Below are positions 29,073 to 38,423 of a stretch of DNA of 64,000 nt, in pieces. The position numbers and the translations under genes are program-made. The stretch comes from Leucobacter sp. UCMA 4100 (GTDB lineage Bacteria > Actinomycetota > Actinomycetes > Actinomycetales > Microbacteriaceae). Positions within the stretch are counted from its first letter, which is position 1; each line of letters begins with the position of its first letter. The notes beneath the pieces were generated by a model. The model was not told the DNA's origin and searched no databases. It was given only the letters and a program-made list of their open reading frames with translations. Where the stretch lies: NCBI RefSeq assembly GCF_027853335.1, contig NZ_JAFEUS010000002.1:1100514-1164513 (forward strand), written 5' to 3'.

Positions 29073-30557
29073 TCACACTAGGCTTTGAAAACTGAGATCT
29101 GGTGCGCGCAGTCCATACTGTGCGCGCAGCGCCTCTTTCGCCGCGTACCAGCCGGAGAGCCCGTGCACCCCCGGCCCCGGCGGGGTCGACGACGAGGCCA
29201 GGTACAGGCCCACGACGGGTGAGCGCCACGGTTTCGCCTTCAGCGTCGGCCTCGCGATGAGCTGCGGCAACGAAACCGCGCCCGCGCTGAAGTCGCCGCC
29301 GTGGTAATTACGGTTATACCGGCTCAGTTCATCGGCCGTCGTCTGCTTCACCGCGACGATTCGGTCCCTGAAGCCCGGCGCGAAACGCTCGATCTGCCTG
29401 ATGACTCGCTCACGCATGTCTTCGTTCGACCCCGCGGGAACGTGCGTGTAGCTCCACACGGCGTGCGCCCCAGCAGGGTTGCGGTCAGGGTCAAAGGCCG
29501 TTGGCTGCGCGAGCAGCACGTATGGTTGCCCAGGGTGCCGTCCCTTCGCGACCTGCGCCTCAGCGTGCGCACCCTGCGCCCGGGTGCCCCCGAGGTGCAC
29601 GGTCGGCGCCTCGTGCACGCGCTCATCTCTCCAAGGAATCGGCCCGTCGAGCACAAAGTCAACCTTCGTCGCCCCGTCACCGTATGAGAAGCGCTCGAGC
29701 GACCTGCGGTACCGCTCCGGGAGCTTCCTCGCGGCAATGCGCGCAAAGCCACGAGCAGAGGTGTCAAAAAGCACCGTCTCGAAGCCGTCGAGCTGGCCAA
29801 TATCGTCAATCGCCATGCTCGTTTCGATGCGCCCGCCGTGAGCCAGCAGATCGTCGGCGAGCACGTCGGCAATGCGCTGCGATCCGCCAATGGGCACCGG
29901 CCAGCCGCTCGCGTGGCCGAGCGTGCCGAGCACGACGCCAACCGCGGCGGTTGCGAGGTTAGGCATTCTGCCGATGCTGTGGGCCGCGACGCCAGAGATG
30001 AGTGCGGGGGCGGCCTCCTCGTGAAACCTGAGGTTCCACAACGGTGTTCCCTGCTCGGCCGTGCGCAGACCCGTCGCGATCGTCGCGAGAAGGTTTGCGG
30101 GCAGGCGCAGCATCGATCCGCCAAGGGCAAAATCAACCACGCCGTCGACTCGCTTCAGCAGTGGCTCGTAGAGCCTGCGGTAGGCCTCACCGTCGCGGCC
30201 GAGCTCGGCTGCCGTGCGGTTCAGGTCACGGTAGGCGATCGCGGCACGGTCGCCAGCGGCGCCGTCGAGCGGGTTCGCGTACGAGGCCTCGGGCACGGCA
30301 AAGCGCATGCGCTTCGTGAGCTCAAACTCGCGAAAGAACCCCGTGGCAAGCGCCATCGGGTGAATCGCAGAGCAGACGTCATGCAACACCCCCGGCTGCA
30401 CGACCTCCATCGTTCTCGTGCCACCACCGATCGTCTCGGCGGCTTCGTACACGGTCACGTCGAGCCCGGCCCGCGCGAGGGTGACGGCCGCGGCAAGCCC
30501 GTTCGGTCCAGAACCAACAACGGCGGCACGGGCGGAGCGTGGGCGGCTAGTCGTCAT
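29073..30557 (-). CDS. FAD-dependent oxidoreductase, phytoene-desaturase-like (PYROXD2-type)
   Basis: A 494-residue flavoprotein with the FAD-binding Rossmann motif VVGSGPNGLAAAVTLARAG at the N-terminus and YEAAETIGGGTRT after it. The C-terminal GLYLASSSTPPGPGVHGLSGW is the second FAD-contact region typical of the CrtI/PYROXD2 group. No carotenoid genes are nearby, so this is more likely one of the uncharacterised PYROXD2-like enzymes. It starts leaderless (TACACT, 7 nt, ATG) just downstream of a hairpin ending the cytochrome b operon. Confidence 0.8.
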   Translation of the reverse strand: MTTSRPRSARAAVVGSGPNGLAAAVTLARAGLDVTVYEAAETIGGGTRTMEVVQPGVLHDVCSAIHPMALATGFFREFELTKRMRFAVPEASYANPLDGAAGDRAAIAYRDLNRTAAELGRDGEAYRRLYEPLLKRVDGVVDFALGGSMLRLPANLLATIATGLRTAEQGTPLWNLRFHEEAAPALISGVAAHSIGRMPNLATAAVGVVLGTLGHASGWPVPIGGSQRIADVLADDLLAHGGRIETSMAIDDIGQLDGFETVLFDTSARGFARIAARKLPERYRRSLERFSYGDGATKVDFVLDGPIPWRDERVHEAPTVHLGGTRAQGAHAEAQVAKGRHPGQPYVLLAQPTAFDPDRNPAGAHAVWSYTHVPAGSNEDMRERVIRQIERFAPGFRDRIVAVKQTTADELSRYNRNYHGGDFSAGAVSLPQLIARPTLKAKPWRSPVVGLYLASSSTPPGPGVHGLSGWYAAKEALRAQYGLRAPDLSFQSLV

Positions 30558-30617: not shown

Positions 30618-32345
30618 TTAGCGGTTACTGACCTTGCCAAAGGCGCTGGCGATCGGCGCGAGCACGAGCGGCTTGCACGCAAACCATCCCGCGACCGTGA
30701 TCGCGATCGAGAGCGCGAACAGCCAGAAGCCCGTCCAGTTGACCACGTCGGTGCCGGCAAACATGTGGTTGAGGTTGCGCAGCGCCCCCGTCGCGAAGAC
30801 GAGAAAGACGTGAATGAGAATGAAGAGCACGAAGAAGAGCATCGTCGGGAAGTGCACGGCGCGAGCAAGCGGCGCCGGGAACATCTTGTTGAGCTTCTCA
30901 GCGTCCTTCGGCCACCACTCGCTCATGCGCACGCCGGTGATGATCGCGATGGGCGATGCAACGAACACGACGAGGAAGTACATGATCTGCTGCAGGCTGT
31001 TGTAGTTGACCCAGCCGTTTTCGACGGGCCAGTCGAGCGTCATGTACTGCAGCAGCGACGAGGCGGCGTTCGGGAACACTTCCCAGCTCGTCGGCACGAT
31101 GCGCATCCAGTGGCCCGAGGCGAAGAGCAGCACCACGAAGATGAGCCCGTTCACGATCCACAGAATGTCGAGCGACGTGTGCAGCCACAGGTTAATGCTG
31201 ATCTTCTTGCCGCCCTTCTTGGGCGTCCAGAAGGCTGGCGGCTGCTGTTGCGTACGAACGAGCAGACCAGAGCGAATGATGAGCACCATCAGGAAGATGT
31301 TGAAGAAGTGCCCCCAGCGCGCCCATGCAGGGAAGCCGGGCTCGCTCGATTCGGGCAGTTCGTACTCGCCCGGGTAGCGTTCGAGCCACTCGGGAACCCC
31401 TGGAAGCGTTGTCACGCCCCTCGCCGCGAGCACGAGAATCGCAGCGGCGACGATCGCTCCAAGGCCGCCGAGCACGACAACCTTGACCCACCAGGCAAGC
31501 TGTTTGCCGCGGATCATGATCGGTTCACGCTTCGGCTTAGCTGGTGCCGCCTTGGCCGCCGGCTGGGTGGCTGGCTTCTGAGCCTGAGCCACCGGTTGGG
31601 CCTGCGCGGCGGGCTGCGCCTGCGCCTCTGGCTGGGCAGCGGGCTCGGCCTGTGCCGCTGGTGCTGGCGCTGGTTCTGCGACCGGGGCTGCGGGCTGCGC
31701 GGCCGGGGCCTGCGCGGCGGGTGCCGCCGCTGGGGCCGTCGGAGCAACCGGAACCGCCTGCAGCGCGACGCCCTCTGGCGGCCACGGTTCCCCGCAGGCC
31801 ACTCGCGGTAAGCCGCGACGCAGCGCGACCTCTCTGAGTTCTGCGGGGGCAGCGGTCGCTGCCGCCGCGGGAGCCGCGCTCGGCGTGGCTGCTGCGGGAG
31901 CCGCCTCGGCTGCCGGCTCTGTCGCTACCGCTGCTGCTGGGGCTGACGCTGCGTCAGTGCTTGCGGCTGGTGCTGCGGCAGGAGCCGCTGCAGGGGCAGC
32001 CGCAGGAGCGGCTCCGGGGAGCGTGCCACCAGCTGGCCAGGGTTCACCGCCTGCGACGCGGGGCAAGCCCTGCCGCAATACCTGAGCCGAGCCTGCCTGC
32101 GGGGCCGGGGCCACCGGCTGAGCCGGGGCTTCCTGCTCGGGAGCCTGCTGCGCTACGGGCGCCTGAGCGGTTGCCTCTTGCACCGCTTGCGCTGGGGCGG
32201 GCGCCGCGACGGGAGCATCAGCGACCGGGGCCGGGGCGGCCTGAACGGTCGCCTCGGTCGTGGCCAACGCTCCGCCCGCGGGCCACGGTTCTCCGCCAGG
32301 GGTGCGCGGCAGTCCTTGCCGCACCTGGCCCGTGTACGTTGCCAT
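30618..32345 (-). CDS. Membrane cytochrome b-type protein with repeat-bearing Ala/Pro-rich N-terminus
   Basis: A 575-residue protein in two parts. Residues ~1-275 are low-complexity Ala/Pro/Gln and carry three copies of a conserved motif, RQGLPRTPGGEPWP-like, at about residues 9-24, 91-106 and 176-191. Residues ~285-570 form a membrane domain with about six helices and candidate heme histidines in WGHFFNIF, NLWLHTSLDI, FASGHWMR, RAVHFPTM and ILIHVFLVF, resembling the cytochrome b of formate dehydrogenases and hydrogenases. It starts 2 nt after the etfA stop, so it probably accepts electrons from ETF for the quinone pool (inference). The function of the repeated motif is not recognised. Confidence 0.75.
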   Translation of the reverse strand: MATYTGQVRQGLPRTPGGEPWPAGGALATTEATVQAAPAPVADAPVAAPAPAQAVQEATAQAPVAQQAPEQEAPAQPVAPAPQAGSAQVLRQGLPRVAGGEPWPAGGTLPGAAPAAAPAAAPAAAPAASTDAASAPAAAVATEPAAEAAPAAATPSAAPAAAATAAPAELREVALRRGLPRVACGEPWPPEGVALQAVPVAPTAPAAAPAAQAPAAQPAAPVAEPAPAPAAQAEPAAQPEAQAQPAAQAQPVAQAQKPATQPAAKAAPAKPKREPIMIRGKQLAWWVKVVVLGGLGAIVAAAILVLAARGVTTLPGVPEWLERYPGEYELPESSEPGFPAWARWGHFFNIFLMVLIIRSGLLVRTQQQPPAFWTPKKGGKKISINLWLHTSLDILWIVNGLIFVVLLFASGHWMRIVPTSWEVFPNAASSLLQYMTLDWPVENGWVNYNSLQQIMYFLVVFVASPIAIITGVRMSEWWPKDAEKLNKMFPAPLARAVHFPTMLFFVLFILIHVFLVFATGALRNLNHMFAGTDVVNWTGFWLFALSIAITVAGWFACKPLVLAPIASAFGKVSNR

Positions 32346-32347
32346 GG

Positions 32348-33316
32348 CTACTTCTTTCGTGATTCAAGCGCGGCGATGAGCTGCGGCACCACCTCGAAGA
32401 GATCACCAACAACGCCAAAGTCTGCCACCTCGAAGATGGGGGCGTCAGCGTCTTTGTTAATCGCAACGATGGTTTTCGCGGTCTGCATGCCAGCGCGGTG
32501 CTGAATGGCGCCCGAGATACCGAGGGCGATGTACAGCTGCGGCGAAACCGAAACACCGGTCTGCCCCACCTGATAAGTATGGGGCACCCAGCCCGCGTCG
32601 ACCGCGGCGCGTGATGCGCCCACGGCGGCGCCGAGCTGATCGGCGAGCTGCTCAACGAGCGAGAACTGCTCCTGCGACCCGAGGCCGCGGCCACCCGAAA
32701 CGACCGTTGCTGCCCCCAGCAGCTCGGGGCGTGACGACACCGCGGTTTCCTCTTCGAACGACTCGATCGTCCCGGCGGGCTTGCCCGAAGCCTCGACCAT
32801 GAGTGTCTCTTGCACGAGCGCCTGAGCTGCTGCGCGGGCGTCGACCGACCCCTGACGGAGCGTCACGACCGGTGCGCCAAACGTCGCCGTCGAGGTGGTG
32901 TTGTAGGCACCGCCGTACACCGAGTGCGAGGCGACAACGCCGAGGTCGTCGCGGGCAATGCCGATCGCATCGACCGAGATCGCGCGCTTCGTGCGCACCG
33001 CGAGACGAGCAGCCGCGTCACGACCGTCGACCGACTGTGAGAGCACGATAGCGTCGGGCTGCACGAGGTCGGCAGCCTGAGCGAGCGCGTCAACGAGCGG
33101 AACCCCGAGGGCACCCTCGGGAGCCTCGGCAACGAGCACCTGTGCCGCACCGAGCTCGGCGAGCGCCGCAGCGTGCGCCGCGTCGCCCACAATGAGCGCG
33201 ACCGGCGTGCCTACCTGCGAGGCAGCACCGATGAGTTCTGCCGCGCTCTTAGCGAGCGCACCCGAGGGGGTCGTCTCAGCGAGAACGAGAATTGAATCCT
33301 GAGCAAAATCAGCCAT
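32348..33316 (-). CDS. etfA: Electron transfer flavoprotein alpha subunit
   Basis: A 322-residue subunit carrying the FAD of the ETF heterodimer. The C-terminal domain has the FAD signature region [21 protein letters not shown], the loop [18 protein letters not shown] and [16 protein letters not shown], all diagnostic. ETF collects electrons from acyl-CoA dehydrogenases, such as the one at 35.7-36.9 kb. It sits 11 nt downstream of etfB and 2 nt upstream of the cytochrome b gene. Confidence 0.93.
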
Positions 33317-33327
33317 TGTAACGCTCC

Positions 33328-34104
33328 CTATACCAGTCGGTTCTCGGCCAGGAACTCGGCGAGCTTCTCGCCCGCGTCGCCCTCGTCGGTAATCTTGATG
33401 CCGGCCTCGCGAGGCGGCTTTTCAGCGACCGTGAGCATGATCGAGCGCGCAACCTCTGGGTTGTCGGCTGCGACCTCGAGGTCGGCCAGGGTCAGGGTTT
33501 CCAGTGGCTTCTTCTTAGCCGCCATGATGCCCTTAAAGTTCGGGAAGCGGGGGTCGGGAAGCGTTTCGGTAATCGATACCACAGCGGGAAGCGAGGCGCT
33601 CACGCGCTGCACTCCGCCGTCAACCGGGCGCGATCCACTCACCTTGCCATCGGCAATCTCGAGCGAAGAAAGGCCCGAGAGGTACGCCGCGCCAAGGTTC
33701 TCGGCGACGGCCGCTGGAACCATACCGCTCGCGCCATCGGTCGAAACGTTGCCCGCGATGACGAGATCAAACCCTGCGCGGCGGATCGCTGCCGAGAGCG
33801 CCTCTGCCGTCAACGTCACGTCTGCGCCGAGGAGCGCCTCATCGGCGATGTGGATCGCGCTGCCCGCGCCCATCGCGAGCGCCTTGCGCACGGTCGCGAC
33901 TGTTCCGTCTGGTGCGAGTGCAAGCGCCACGACCTCGGTACCCTCGTTCGCCTCTGCGTACGTGAGGGCGGCCTCCATGGCACGCTCGGTAATTTCATCG
34001 AGCACGGCGTCACTCGCCGCGCGATCTGCTAGACCGGTTTCTAGGTTGAGCTTACGGTCACCGTAGGTGTCTGGCACCTCTTTGACCAAGACGATCAACT
34101 TCAT
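33328..34104 (-). CDS. etfB: Electron transfer flavoprotein beta subunit
   Basis: A 258-residue subunit that binds AMP and docks to dehydrogenases. Typical regions are [43 protein letters not shown] and [20 protein letters not shown]; the last is the recognition loop and AMP-site segment. The ATG at 34104 (TGGAGA 5 nt upstream) is chosen over a longer frame. A TAAGAT -10 box lies at 34134-34139. It heads the etfB-etfA-cytochrome b operon and is divergent from a MarR regulator. Confidence 0.93.
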
Positions 34105-34156
34105 CGTTTCTCCATTCAGTCTTTCCCACAATTATCTTAGCCCGTCTCATATGGAG

Positions 34157-34815: not shown

Positions 34816-35727
34816 CTATGCTCCCGGTTCTTCGGCACCCTCGCGAATCACGTTGATGATGCCTGAGAAGTCGGTCGTGGCGCCATCGCCCTCGGCATAC
34901 GCCGCATAGATGCGCTCTGCGTGCAGCCCGAGAGCCGCCTGCATACCCGTTGTCTCAATTGCGTGGCGTGCGAGACCCAGATCTTTGGCCATGAGCGCGC
35001 CGCTAAAACCAGGCTGGTAGTCGCGGTTCGCCGGCGAAGTCGGGACAGGCCCCGGCACCGGGCAGTTCGTCGTGAGCGCCCAGCACTGGCCTGAAGCATT
35101 CGCCGCCACGTCATACAGTGCCTCGTGGCTCAGACCCAGCTGCTCGCCGAGCACGAAAGCCTCGGCGACGGCAATCTGCGAGATGCCGAGAATCATGTTG
35201 TTGCACACCTTCGCGGCCTGGCCGAGCCCCGACGATCCGCAGTGCACAATGCGTTTGCCCATGACCTCCAGGAGGGGAAGCGCCTCGCTAAAGTCGCCCT
35301 GTTCGCCGCCCACCATGAAGGCGAGCGTTGCCTGCTCGGCCCCAACGACGCCGCCAGAAACCGGCGCATCGAGGGCACGGTGGCCCGCCTCGCGCACCGC
35401 ATCGGCGGCCTGGCGCGACTCTTCGACCGAGATTGTCGAGCAGTCAAGAAAGAGCGTGCCGGGCTTTGCCTCTGAAAGAAGCCCCGGGGCCGCTGCGCTG
35501 CCGTAGACCGCGAGCACATGCTTGCCTGCCGGCAGCATCGTGATCACGATATCGGCTTCGCGGGTCGCCTGCTCTGCCGAGTCAGCAATTTCGACCCCGC
35601 GATCACGAGCAGCGTCGCGCAGTTCGGCAACGAGGTCGAAGCCGAGCACTCGATGCCCGGCACCGGCGAGGTTCGCGGCCATGGGCGCGCCCATGTGCCC
35701 CAGCCCTACAAAAGCGATCGTGGTCAT
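34816..35727 (-). CDS. mmsB: 3-hydroxyisobutyrate dehydrogenase
   Basis: Oxidises 3-hydroxyisobutyrate to methylmalonate semialdehyde in valine degradation. The 303 residues show AFVGLGHMGAPMAANLAGAG (NAD site), DAPVSGGVVGAEQATL, and the catalytic Lys in GLGQAAKVCNNM. The ATG at 35727 overlaps the acyl-CoA dehydrogenase stop by ATGA and has AAAGGAG 8 nt upstream; an ATG six bases earlier is too close to that site. It ends the mmsA-acyl-CoA dehydrogenase-mmsB operon. Confidence 0.92.
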   Translation of the reverse strand: MTTIAFVGLGHMGAPMAANLAGAGHRVLGFDLVAELRDAARDRGVEIADSAEQATREADIVITMLPAGKHVLAVYGSAAAPGLLSEAKPGTLFLDCSTISVEESRQAADAVREAGHRALDAPVSGGVVGAEQATLAFMVGGEQGDFSEALPLLEVMGKRIVHCGSSGLGQAAKVCNNMILGISQIAVAEAFVLGEQLGLSHEALYDVAANASGQCWALTTNCPVPGPVPTSPANRDYQPGFSGALMAKDLGLARHAIETTGMQAALGLHAERIYAAYAEGDGATTDFSGIINVIREGAEEPGA

Positions 35728-36893
35728 GCGCATTGCTCCTTTCGTTTGCCCGCCAGCATGCTCTTGCCAACGATGGTGTTCATGATTTCGTTCGTTCCCT
35801 CGAGAATCTGGTGCACCCTGAGGTCGCGCACGACGCGCTCGATGCCGTACTCCTGCAGGTAGCCGTAGCCGCCGTGCAGTTGCAGCGCGCTGTTCGCCAC
35901 CTCGAAGCAGGCATCAGTCGCGAAGCGCTTCGCCATGGCGCAGGCCACCGCAACCTCCGGATGATCATGATCCATGTAGGCCGCCGCCCGCTGCAGCATC
36001 GCACGCGAAGCCTGCAGCTTCGTCTCCATGTCAGCGAGCACAAACACCACCGACTGCAGCTCTGAGAGCGGGGCACCGAAGGCCTCGCGCTCCTGCACGT
36101 AGGTCAGCGCACGGTCGACCGCCCACTGTGCACCGCCGAGCGAGCAGGCCGCAATGTTGATGCGGCCGCCATTGAGGCCGCGCATGGCGAAGGTAAAGCC
36201 CTCGCCCTCCTGGCCCAGAAGGTTTGCCGCTGGAACCCGAACGTCTTCAAAAATGACCTGCCTGGTCGGCTGCGCGTTCCACCCCATCTTGCGTTCGTTC
36301 GGGCCGAACGAGAGGCCCTCGCTCCCTGCCGGAACGATAAACGCGCTCACGCCCTTTGGCCCGGGACCTCCGGTGCGGGCCATGACGAGGTACACCTGCG
36401 TCGACCCGGCACCCGAGATGAACTGCTTCGTACCGTTGAGCACGTAGTGATCGCCGTCACGCACCGCCGAGGTCGCCAATGCAGCCGCATCAGAGCCCGC
36501 GCCGGGCTCAGTCAGGCAGTAACTGCAGAGGTCGGTCATCTCGACGATGCCGGGTAGCCACTGTGCCCGCTGCTCGGCGTTGCCGAACGTGTCGATCATC
36601 CACGCCACCATATTGTGAATCGAGATGTAGGCGGCAACCGCGATGTCGCCCTTCGCGAGCTCCTCAAAAATGGCGATTGCGTCACTGCGAGTGAGGCCTA
36701 TGCCGTACTCATCAGAAACATAGAGGCCACCGAGGCCAAGCTCACCCGCCTGCCTCAGAGTGTCAACGGGAAAGATTTTTTCGGCGTCTCGCTCGCTCGC
36801 GTAGGGCACGAGCTCTGCCTGGGTGAAGTCGCGCACCGCGTCGATGATCGCGTTGCGCTCTTCATTGTCGCCCGGGGTTTGCGTCCAATGCAT
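35724..36893 (-). CDS. Acyl-CoA dehydrogenase, probably isobutyryl-CoA dehydrogenase
   Basis: A 389-residue flavoprotein that introduces a double bond into a short acyl-CoA and passes electrons to ETF. Landmarks are YCLTEPGAGSDAAAL and FISGAGSTQVYLVMARTG (FAD site), RVPAANLLGQEGEGF, HGGYGYLQEYGIERVVRDLR, and the catalytic Glu in ILEGTNEIM. Isobutyryl-CoA as substrate is inferred from its position between mmsA and mmsB. The start has AGGGGAC about 8 nt upstream. Confidence 0.9.
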   Translation of the reverse strand: MHWTQTPGDNEERNAIIDAVRDFTQAELVPYASERDAEKIFPVDTLRQAGELGLGGLYVSDEYGIGLTRSDAIAIFEELAKGDIAVAAYISIHNMVAWMIDTFGNAEQRAQWLPGIVEMTDLCSYCLTEPGAGSDAAALATSAVRDGDHYVLNGTKQFISGAGSTQVYLVMARTGGPGPKGVSAFIVPAGSEGLSFGPNERKMGWNAQPTRQVIFEDVRVPAANLLGQEGEGFTFAMRGLNGGRINIAACSLGGAQWAVDRALTYVQEREAFGAPLSELQSVVFVLADMETKLQASRAMLQRAAAYMDHDHPEVAVACAMAKRFATDACFEVANSALQLHGGYGYLQEYGIERVVRDLRVHQILEGTNEIMNTIVGKSMLAGKRKEQCA

Positions 36894-36905
36894 GGCACGG
36901 TCCCC

Positions 36906-38423
36906 TTAATCCATCGTCGGCATGACGAAACTTGCGCCACCCGAGGCTTGTTCTTTGGCACCCGATGGCCAGCGGCTCGTGACGGTCTTAGTCTTCGTGT
37001 AGAAGCGGAAGCCGTCGGTGCCGTGCTGATTCAAGTCGCCAAAGCCAGACTTCTTCCACCCGCCAAAGGTGTAGTAGGCGATCGGCACCGGAATCGGCAC
37101 GTTCACGCCAACCATGCCCACGTTGACTCGGGCGCTGAAGTCGCGCGCCGTGTCGCCGTCGCGGGTAAAGATCGCCACACCGTTGCCGTACTCGTGGTCG
37201 GTCGCGAGCGCGAGCGCCTCTTCGTAGTCACCGGCGCGCACAACCGCGAGCACGGGGCCGAAGATCTCTTCGCGGTAAATCGCCATGTCGCGAGTGACCC
37301 CGTCAAACAGCGTAGGCCCAAGGTAGAAGCCGTTCTCGTAGCCCTCGAGCGTGAAGCCGCGCCCGTCGACCACGAGTGACGCGCCCTCATCGATGCCCTG
37401 CTGAATGTAGCCCTCGACGCGCTCTTTCGCCTGACTCGTGACGAGCGGGCCGTAGTCGGCGCCCTCGTCAAACGAGTGCCCCACCTTGAGCTCGGCCACA
37501 CGCTCGGTCAGCTTCGCAACGAGCGCGTTCGCGGTCTCTTCGCCGACCGGAACAGCGACCGAGATCGCCATGCAGCGCTCACCCGCCGATCCGTAGCCAG
37601 CGCCGAGCAGCGCATCGACGGCGTCGTCGAGATCGGCATCGGGCATGATAATGAGGTGGTTCTTCGCGCCGCCGAAGCACTGCGCACGCTTGCCGTTTGC
37701 CGCCGCGCGCTCGTAAATGTACTGCGCAATGGGGGTCGATCCGACAAAGCCAATCGCCTGCACACGCTCGTCGTCGAGCAAAACGTCAACGGCTTCTTTG
37801 TCGCCGTTGACGACGGTGAAGATGCCGTCTGGCAGGCCCGCCTCTTTCCAGAGTTCTGCGAGACGCAGCGGAACCGAGGGGTCACGCTCTGATGGCTTCA
37901 GGATAAAGGCGTTGCCCGCCGCAATGGCCGGCCCACACTTCCACAGGGGAATCATCGCGGGAAAGTTAAAGGGAGTAATGCCGGCAACAACACCGAGCGG
38001 CTGCCGCATCGAGAACACATCGATGCCGGTGCCCGCGGCCGAGCTGTACTCGCCCTTCAAGAGATGCGGTGCGCCGATCGAAAACTCGATGACCTCGGCT
38101 CCACGCTGAATATCACCCATCGAGTCAGCGACCGTCTTACCATGCTCACGCGAGAGGGTTCGAGCGAGCTCGGGGCTCTCAGCATTCAGCAGCTGCAAGA
38201 ACTTCATGAACACTCGGGCACGCTTCTGCGGGTTGGTCGCTGCCCAACCGGGCTGCGCGGCCTCGGCCGTCGCGATTGCCCGCTCGACCTCCTGCTTACT
38301 CGCGAGCGGCACACGGGCCTGCACCTCACCGGTGCTCGGGTTCCAGACGTCGCTGAATCGGCCTGATGAGCCAAACACGTGCGCGCCCTGAATGAAGTGA
38401 GTGAGTTCGGGTAGATCAGTCAC
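36906..38423 (-). CDS. mmsA: CoA-acylating methylmalonate-semialdehyde dehydrogenase
   Basis: Converts methylmalonate semialdehyde to propionyl-CoA with NAD and CoA. The 505 residues match the MmsA family: RQPLGVVAGITPFNFPAMIPLW, FVGSTPIAQYIYERAAANGKR, and the catalytic Cys in GSAGERCMAIS. The C-terminus has PIPVPIAYYTFGGWK. The GTG start at 38423 has AAAGGAG 5 nt upstream. It heads the valine operon; its product can feed the 2-methylcitrate operon at 58-62 kb. A palindrome overlaps its likely -10 box. Confidence 0.93.
   Translation of the reverse strand: MTDLPELTHFIQGAHVFGSSGRFSDVWNPSTGEVQARVPLASKQEVERAIATAEAAQPGWAATNPQKRARVFMKFLQLLNAESPELARTLSREHGKTVADSMGDIQRGAEVIEFSIGAPHLLKGEYSSAAGTGIDVFSMRQPLGVVAGITPFNFPAMIPLWKCGPAIAAGNAFILKPSERDPSVPLRLAELWKEAGLPDGIFTVVNGDKEAVDVLLDDERVQAIGFVGSTPIAQYIYERAAANGKRAQCFGGAKNHLIIMPDADLDDAVDALLGAGYGSAGERCMAISVAVPVGEETANALVAKLTERVAELKVGHSFDEGADYGPLVTSQAKERVEGYIQQGIDEGASLVVDGRGFTLEGYENGFYLGPTLFDGVTRDMAIYREEIFGPVLAVVRAGDYEEALALATDHEYGNGVAIFTRDGDTARDFSARVNVGMVGVNVPIPVPIAYYTFGGWKKSGFGDLNQHGTDGFRFYTKTKTVTSRWPSGAKEQASGGASFVMPTMD

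Follow-up and report, generated by a model that had tools for sequence, protein, structure and literature searches.

The locus described here raises the question of how electrons leave ETF for menaquinone in a Leucobacter, and of what a motif repeated in the disordered tail of a cytochrome, encoded directly after the ETF genes, might contribute to this step. The window, i.e., the whole stretch of DNA that was analysed (64,000 nucleotides of Leucobacter sp. UCMA 4100), belongs to a genome of 2.84 Mb. None of 120 family genomes has ETF-QO (PF05187), for which the same search was positive in 3 of 14 control genomes, and a search of the window's whole genome (G000) for PF02754, which marks EtfD, gave no match, so that the ETF-to-quinone step is without a known enzyme there. 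Among the matches listed for the open-licence PMC literature, none describes, in its title or the start of its abstract, the motif or the cytochrome as an ETF partner.

The cytochrome and its repeat-bearing tail

The gene and its motif copies were placed as follows (positions in the window, mean pLDDT from the AF2 model):
30618–32345, minus strand: 575-residue cytochrome b561 bearing a disordered tail at its N-terminus, a proposed diheme ETF:menaquinone oxidoreductase (PF01292, AF2, FdnI-like fold)
32280–32321, minus strand: motif copy 1, residues 9–22 (block 11–20, mean pLDDT 76)
32034–32075, minus strand: motif copy 2, residues 91–104 (block 91–100, mean pLDDT 69)
31779–31820, minus strand: motif copy 3, Cys variant, residues 176–189 (blocks 171–200, mean pLDDT 75–78)

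The protein belongs to the prokaryotic cytochromes b561 by its PF01292 match at residues 338–530 (39.5 bits, curated cut-off 30.1), which was the sole Pfam match at E values of up to 1, with neither PF05187 nor a CCG/4Fe-4S domain. Its closest named relative is from Leucobacter chinensis (94% in the best segment). The N-terminal 280 residues form an Ala/Pro/Gln-rich tail, in which the pattern R[RQ]GLPRxx[GC]GEPWP occurs three times (core G at residues 11, 93, and 178; core sequences RQGLPRTPGGEPWP, RQGLPRVAGGEPWP, and RRGLPRVACGEPWP for copies 1, 2, and 3); shuffling the tail 20000 times never produced it. An earlier note on this DNA had described three motif copies in the disordered N-terminus of a cytochrome b, and this was confirmed, the cores agreeing with the residue ranges it gave; its linkers of about 60 residues were too short, as the start-to-start spacings of 82 and 85 residues leave linkers of approximately 68 and 71. 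The Cys that it had read in place of Gly in the third copy is real but not conserved (Gly stands at the same place in the same-genus genome G051, locus L004), and a role of this Cys as a redox site was rejected for that reason. At amino acids common to two copies, synonymous codons exceed identical ones (9 vs. 4 for copies 1 and 2, 6 vs. 3 for copies 1 and 3, 9 vs. 2 for copies 2 and 3), so that the copies look old and kept at the protein level.

The membrane part of the protein comprises the following features:
30621–31508, minus strand: membrane domain, residues 280–575, six predicted TM helices (hydropathy, loop charges, AF2 helices)
31308–31310, minus strand: His346, predicted heme ligand (invariant in 99/99 rows)
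31179–31181, minus strand: His389, predicted heme ligand (invariant in 99/99 rows)
30852–30854, minus strand: His498, predicted heme ligand (invariant in 99/99 rows)
30810–30812, minus strand: His512, predicted heme ligand (invariant in 99/99 rows)

Hydropathy gave six helices, the last one as two overlapping windows, and the K+R counts of the loops (5, 5, and 3 inside vs. 3, 1, and 1 outside) predict an inside N-terminus. From residue 281 on, mean pLDDT of the AF2 model exceeds 80 in all ten-residue blocks but one. The nearest fold was FdnI (1kqf_C; Z 11.7, model residues 335–536 on chain residues 7–191; Foldseek probability 1.00, best E only 0.02), followed by E. coli superoxide oxidase (Z 11.2) and HyaC (Z 10.1); a fold Z of this level can arise among helical bundles, and the PF01292 match agrees with an FdnI-like fold. 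The four invariant His (counted without L199 and L200) and the FdnI-like model agree with two predicted bis-His hemes in a four-helix bundle. The b-type subunits FdnI and HyaC (PF01292) have the same fold and four His with like spacing, those of FdnI being what we take to be its heme ligands; the window cytochrome differs from FdnI by an extra first helix, a predicted orientation opposite to that of FdnI (whose N-terminus is presumably inside), a proposed soluble flavoprotein donor, and the motif tail. The sequence suggests that the bundle is inverted relative to FdnI via the extra first helix, and if the orientation assumed for FdnI is right, the entry heme (His389/498) would be cytoplasmic and the quinone-side heme (His346/512) would face outward.

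A relative of the heme module was found at L200:4335–6122 as a cytochrome fused to a C-terminal molybdopterin oxidoreductase domain (Oxidored_molyb, PF00174, with PF01292); it is ~40–50% identical over residues 100–280 of the 294-residue query, and this one locus carries no motif. The same heme module thus probably serves other donors.

In the tail, mean pLDDT is 41–47 in the first two linkers and 52–63 in the third, and copy 3 is modelled as a hairpin with flanking strands 169–174 and 193–198. The copies may have raised values because they form a small fold, or simply because they are conserved in the alignment. A motif that serves the cytochrome itself, by self-association or as an intramolecular cap or regulator and possibly as a mini-fold, would fit the contrast of copies (69–78) and linkers as well as the hairpin strands, yet we consider it distinctly unlikely: membrane domains with and without the tail hardly differ (the filter for residues specific to the motif class retained only positions 563 and 569), the raised pLDDT may just mirror the alignment, and two to four copies on drifting linkers better suit binding from a distance.

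Distribution of the motif and its link to ETF genes

Upstream of the cytochrome gene, the window holds these genes:
32348–33316, minus strand: etfA, ETF alpha subunit (PF00766 and PF01012; among solved chains, mitochondrial ETF alpha is nearest, followed by 1efp)
33328–34131, minus strand: etfB, ETF beta subunit (PF01012; listed ORF, likely ATG start at 34104)
34816–38423, minus strand: valine-catabolism genes, i.e., 3-hydroxyisobutyrate dehydrogenase, acyl-CoA dehydrogenase, and methylmalonate-semialdehyde dehydrogenase

The end of etfA and the start of the cytochrome gene are 2 bases apart, and etfB-etfA encode a canonical ETF, with the ETF and ETF_alpha domains over their cut-offs. In the valine-catabolism block, TIGR01692 and TIGR01722 were over cut-off and acyl-CoA dehydrogenase-type models matched below theirs; these neighbours are a likely electron source of the ETF. 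A divergent MarR-like ORF (named by reading; no NCBIfam family) sits between etfB and this block, and an FAD oxidoreductase with sub-cut-off CrtI/CrtO matches (29073–30557) lies downstream of the cytochrome on the same strand.

A motif profile of 23 positions was built from 28 copies. As the earlier note had advised, carriers were sought by profile search: within the window's genome, the only strong sites were the three copies in the cytochrome (E 4e-12 to 1.6e-10; next-best match E 0.089), and in the loci fetched from other genomes the motif sat on ETF-linked cytochromes. At E < 1e-4, it was found in 19 of the 150 genomes of the family search (33/150 at E 0.01). The order search gave 47/347 genomes (family groups f1, f6, f7, f9, and f10; mostly two to four copies) and the phylum search 3/396, the window's own included and all in f1, with at most 25 (order) or 22 (phylum) candidates scored per genome, so that copies may be missed. 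Named carriers include Leucobacter, Microbacterium, Arthrobacter, Pseudarthrobacter, Brevibacterium, Gulosibacter, Agromyces, and Sinomonas. The motif is hence not absent from orthologues, the outcome that the earlier note had set against its own proposal; those in several genera mostly carry two to four copies. A PHROGs search gave no match, a PDB sequence search with the motif only weak ones (best E 0.04), and the 32 plasmid records with relatives were all below 60% identity, none covering 80% of the query.

Among 80 named loci, 57 have three copies, 15 four, 4 two, 1 one, and 3 none; two of the motif-less loci have a contig end as their start, and the remaining one is from a Corynebacterium record. 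Copy 1 begins at residues 2–7 in 76 of the 77 motif-bearing named loci, and the median spacing is 85 (range 50–179). Between orthologues within a group, motif identity is 0.87–0.96; the linkers are of low complexity and variable length, and their identity, 0.87 in the one group that is a same-genus pair, is 0.30–0.52 in the other four. In 282 distinct copies, G is present in 282, L in 279, P in 281, the R before in 279, the R after in 279, and W in 270, counts in which the finding profile itself favours the core letters. In the decayed tails examined, GEPWP was lost first and R[RQ]GL retained (some loci lack the whole tail), so that, judged from the sequences, the Arg-flanked GL core looks like the essential part of the motif. 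In a Corynebacterium MAG (L312:3299–4900), the same cytochrome (67% identical in the best segment) occurs with no etfA in the locus; its Ala/Pro/Gly tail is without GLPR and carries another short motif, PMKL, twice, possibly a motif swap.

These data bear on the idea of a tail that is only a spacer or a membrane-surface brush, with the motif as a partnerless leftover of repeat expansion. Such a tail would account for low-complexity linkers of variable length and for the loss of GEPWP or of the entire tail in some loci, but it appears very improbable in view of the synonymous codon divergence between copies with fixed residues, the motif identity far above that of the linkers in four of five groups, and the core R, G, L, P, and R each in at least 279/282 copies, though the finding profile favours these.

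The link to ETF was assessed in a table of 101 loci, comprising the window and 100 regions that were the author's selection from a larger number of places, in five classes: 52 ETF-linked with the motif, 6 ETF-linked with a tail without motif over threshold, 15 ETF-linked and tail-less, and 28 not ETF-linked (classes of 27 and 1). The motif was present in 52/73 ETF-linked loci, i.e., those with etfA upstream on the same strand (73/101), vs. 0/28 of the others; L115, where an assembly gap breaks the frame of the tail and one copy is visible, and L117, where the start is set downstream of a core copy, were counted as motif-less. Every strong motif locus fetched had the cytochrome domain with etfA just upstream, and the genes directly before the cytochrome in motif loci were etfA, plus etfB where the locus extends far enough. 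The 80 named loci had the motif together with etfA in 77 cases, one without the other in 0, and neither in 3; since they were picked on a ranking of their resemblance to the complete protein, the 77/77 is biased. With 15/73 ETF-linked cytochromes tail-less, the motif cannot be a strict general requirement for oxidising ETF.

This pattern was weighed against a docking partner different from ETF, which might be an acyl-CoA dehydrogenase, a complex of the respiratory chain, or a scaffold, with the tail building a metabolon around the cytochrome. The adjoining acyl-CoA dehydrogenase and valine-catabolism genes, a multivalency that suits scaffolding, and the AF2 model without docking on EtfA alone (see below) would be in line with it. 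We nevertheless regard it as unlikely, as the motif tracks etfA and is carried by 0/28 loci without it, no other protein of the window's genome has a strong match, and the genes directly before the cytochrome in motif loci encode ETF. The earlier note had named ETF or a dehydrogenase as partners, and for the dehydrogenase as direct partner, the only separate argument is a gene nearby.

In the family sample, EtfA (PF00766) was over cut-off in 31/120 genomes and the cytochrome was found in 58/120; all 31 EtfA-positive genomes also had the cytochrome (compared by eye; Fisher p 5e-13, kinship ignored), and the 17 of the 19 family motif genomes that fall within these 120 were all EtfA-positive. One genome (G031) had an EtfA match below cut-off and no cytochrome, and in another (G018) the two are on different contigs, so they are not always neighbours. 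As 27/58 cytochrome-positive genomes are without EtfA over cut-off, the membrane domain also has other uses; the neighbours of standalone homologues, nine ORFs from eight loci, included no constant partner, and four of these ORFs were without any Pfam match. Three genomes (G006, G089, and G096) have three EtfA and three cytochrome matches each, and at G006:C1:2837467–2841090 two equal-score cytochrome matches lie 1.9 kb apart on opposite strands in an apparent inverted duplication. PF02754 was searched in 12 motif carriers; five had no match (the window's genome, G089, G096, G106, and G007) and seven had matches in unsorted CCG proteins, so that another ETF acceptor is possible in those seven.

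Another enzyme might oxidise ETF, with the cytochrome doing a different job, e.g., as a superoxide-oxidase-like b561. In its favour are the rank of E. coli superoxide oxidase as second-best fold match (Z 11.2), the cytochrome-positive genomes without EtfA, the standalone homologues, and the unsorted CCG proteins; opposed to it are the cytochrome in 31/31 EtfA-positive genomes, the 0/120 result for ETF-QO, the lack of a CCG match in the window's genome, and etfA upstream on the same strand in 73/101 loci. Taken together, we judge this explanation to be quite improbable.

Contact candidates on ETF

EtfA (52) and EtfB (51) of motif loci were compared with those of the 15 tail-less loci, and 21 positions passed the class filter (11 in EtfA, 10 in EtfB). 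Six contact candidates were picked from these after the fact, i.e., EtfA R122, G126, and T145 and EtfB L30, L34, and I231. Conservation in motif vs. tail-less loci was 51/52 vs. 0/15 for EtfA R122, 52/52 vs. 2/15 for EtfA G126, 51/51 vs. 2/15 for EtfB L34, and 51/51 vs. 1/15 for EtfB I231. Of the six residues, tail-less loci keep 0–3, and loci with decayed tails that retain the core keep 5 or 6. A third ETF-linked paralogue in G096 (L129) has a 150-residue tail without motif over threshold and an ETF with 1/6 of the candidate residues.

A tree without the filtered sites still groups the motif-type ETFs (support 99, 55 rows), so that kinship may explain the residue pattern; L115 was excluded from the trees, and the careful tree was built without a further five rows that were long or near-identical. 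Motif and ETF type appear to have been inherited largely as one block, and the pattern could be mere kinship. A test on independent pairs had a median p of 1, with too few pairs. The locus L135, which has the motif and a motif-type ETF and whose cytochrome falls among those of the other class in two trees, was considered as a natural chimaera, a case in which the tail would have moved together with the ETF, and dropped, since AU tests do not reject its ordinary placement (p 0.94 and 0.65; better likelihood). An ETF docking surface common to mycobacteria was also rejected, as five mycobacterial ETFs are without the candidate residue set; six Streptomyces ETFs likewise lack the full set of motif-associated residues.

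In an AF2 model of EtfA read through into the tail (L106), no docking was seen and copies 2 and 3 had pLDDT values of ~35–46; the model contains EtfA without EtfB, and only five alignment rows cover the tail. Overall, the motif is best read as docking ETF, a reasonably probable reading that draws on conservation, exclusivity, operon context, and the analogy to EtfD described below. The docking role that the earlier note had suggested for ETF is thus favoured by these four lines, and the AF2 model and the 15/73 tail-less loci speak against it.

Comparison with EtfD and the proposed electron route

In mycobacteria, EtfD (Rv0338c/MSMEG_0690) carries electrons from ETF to menaquinone by means of one heme b and FeS clusters, of which two sit in CCG domains; its C-terminal tail of 30 kDa is disordered with conserved interspersed repeats, an AlphaFold3 model suggests that ETF binds via this tail, and in FadF and DgcB, which are related to EtfD, the tail is short or missing (PMC13083937). 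EtfB was among 49 proteins brought down by EtfD immunoprecipitation (PMC8593149). The EtfD tails of four loci (L205, L206, L209, and L210) have at least four repeats like PVKGLGIAAGAKRPGAKK with Ala/Pro-rich linkers and one copy at the C-terminus, and the EtfD-like proteins of Streptomyces (L201–L204; genus by reading) have no repeat tail. A profile of the EtfD repeat (KGLGIAAGAKRPGAKK-type) matched in 23/335 genomes of the class, all of group f22 and with a CCG domain in the same ORF in the 23/23 loci checked; in the window's genome it had no match at E 1e-4. Homology of the window motif and the EtfD repeat was rejected (hhalign probability 0.1%), only the [KR]-G-L core being alike.

Both proteins are membrane acceptors (for the cytochrome as proposed here) on a route from ETF to menaquinone, and both have a long disordered Ala/Pro-rich tail with interspersed repeats of similar core (K-G-L in EtfD, R-G-L in the cytochrome) and one copy at the end of the protein. 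Relatives with a short tail or none also occur on both sides, namely FadF and DgcB and the tail-less cytochromes here. The resemblance is one of architecture; they differ in the motif profiles, which do not match, in the cofactors (FeS clusters and one heme b vs. a b561 with four invariant His, in which no FeS domain was found), in the end that bears the tail (C-terminal vs. N-terminal), and in gene order, EtfA and EtfD being far apart or on different contigs in 5/5 mycobacteria. ETF-QO (ETFDH) has the same proposed role, ETF to quinone, but its PF05187 domain is not in the window cytochrome.

The best explanation of the whole, which we hold with moderate confidence, makes the cytochrome an ETF:menaquinone oxidoreductase whose motif serves as a multivalent docking peptide for ETF; the presence of two hemes, the passage of electrons to menaquinone, the identity of the docked partner as ETF, and the weakness of the binding are the parts that we infer. 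According to this model, etfB-etfA and the cytochrome gene would form an electron-input module, in which acyl-CoA dehydrogenases would reduce ETF, ETF would pass its electrons to the membrane diheme cytochrome b561, and the latter would reduce menaquinone. The cytoplasmic N-terminal tail with its two to four copies (core R[RQ]GLPR, then GGEPWPP) would dock ETF weakly and reversibly and so raise its concentration at the membrane, and the flexible Ala/Pro linkers would allow docked ETF to reach the electron-entry heme. The inverted bundle would take up electrons on its cytoplasmic side and reduce menaquinone close to the outer face, perhaps with help from the proton motive force. The potential of menaquinone lies below that of the acyl-CoA couple, and a potential-driven step is known for Bacillus succinate dehydrogenase; given the order of the two potentials, such a step would make sense here. 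For menaquinone, a value of −74 mV is given in PMC10734219.

That two unrelated actinobacterial ETF acceptors, the FeS protein EtfD of mycobacteria and a diheme cytochrome b of the window's order, independently grew ETF-docking repeat tails, and that the cytochrome stands for an unrecognised family of potential-driven, inverted-diheme ETF:menaquinone oxidoreductases, is put forward tentatively, as a possibility somewhat short of probable; if true, repeat tails would be a general way of keeping a soluble flavoprotein with many partners, i.e., a promiscuous one, close to the membrane. The cytochrome is accordingly offered as a new candidate ETF:menaquinone oxidoreductase and as the second candidate ETF acceptor, after EtfD, with repeats in a disordered tail. 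If this is right, a candidate enzyme would be named for Leucobacter, Microbacterium, Arthrobacter, and Brevibacterium, and a defined peptide would be at hand for probing how ETF is recruited to membranes, a question left by the 2026 EtfD structure. Most likely, the cytochrome brings electrons from the breakdown of fat and amino acids into the respiratory chain of some soil actinobacteria.
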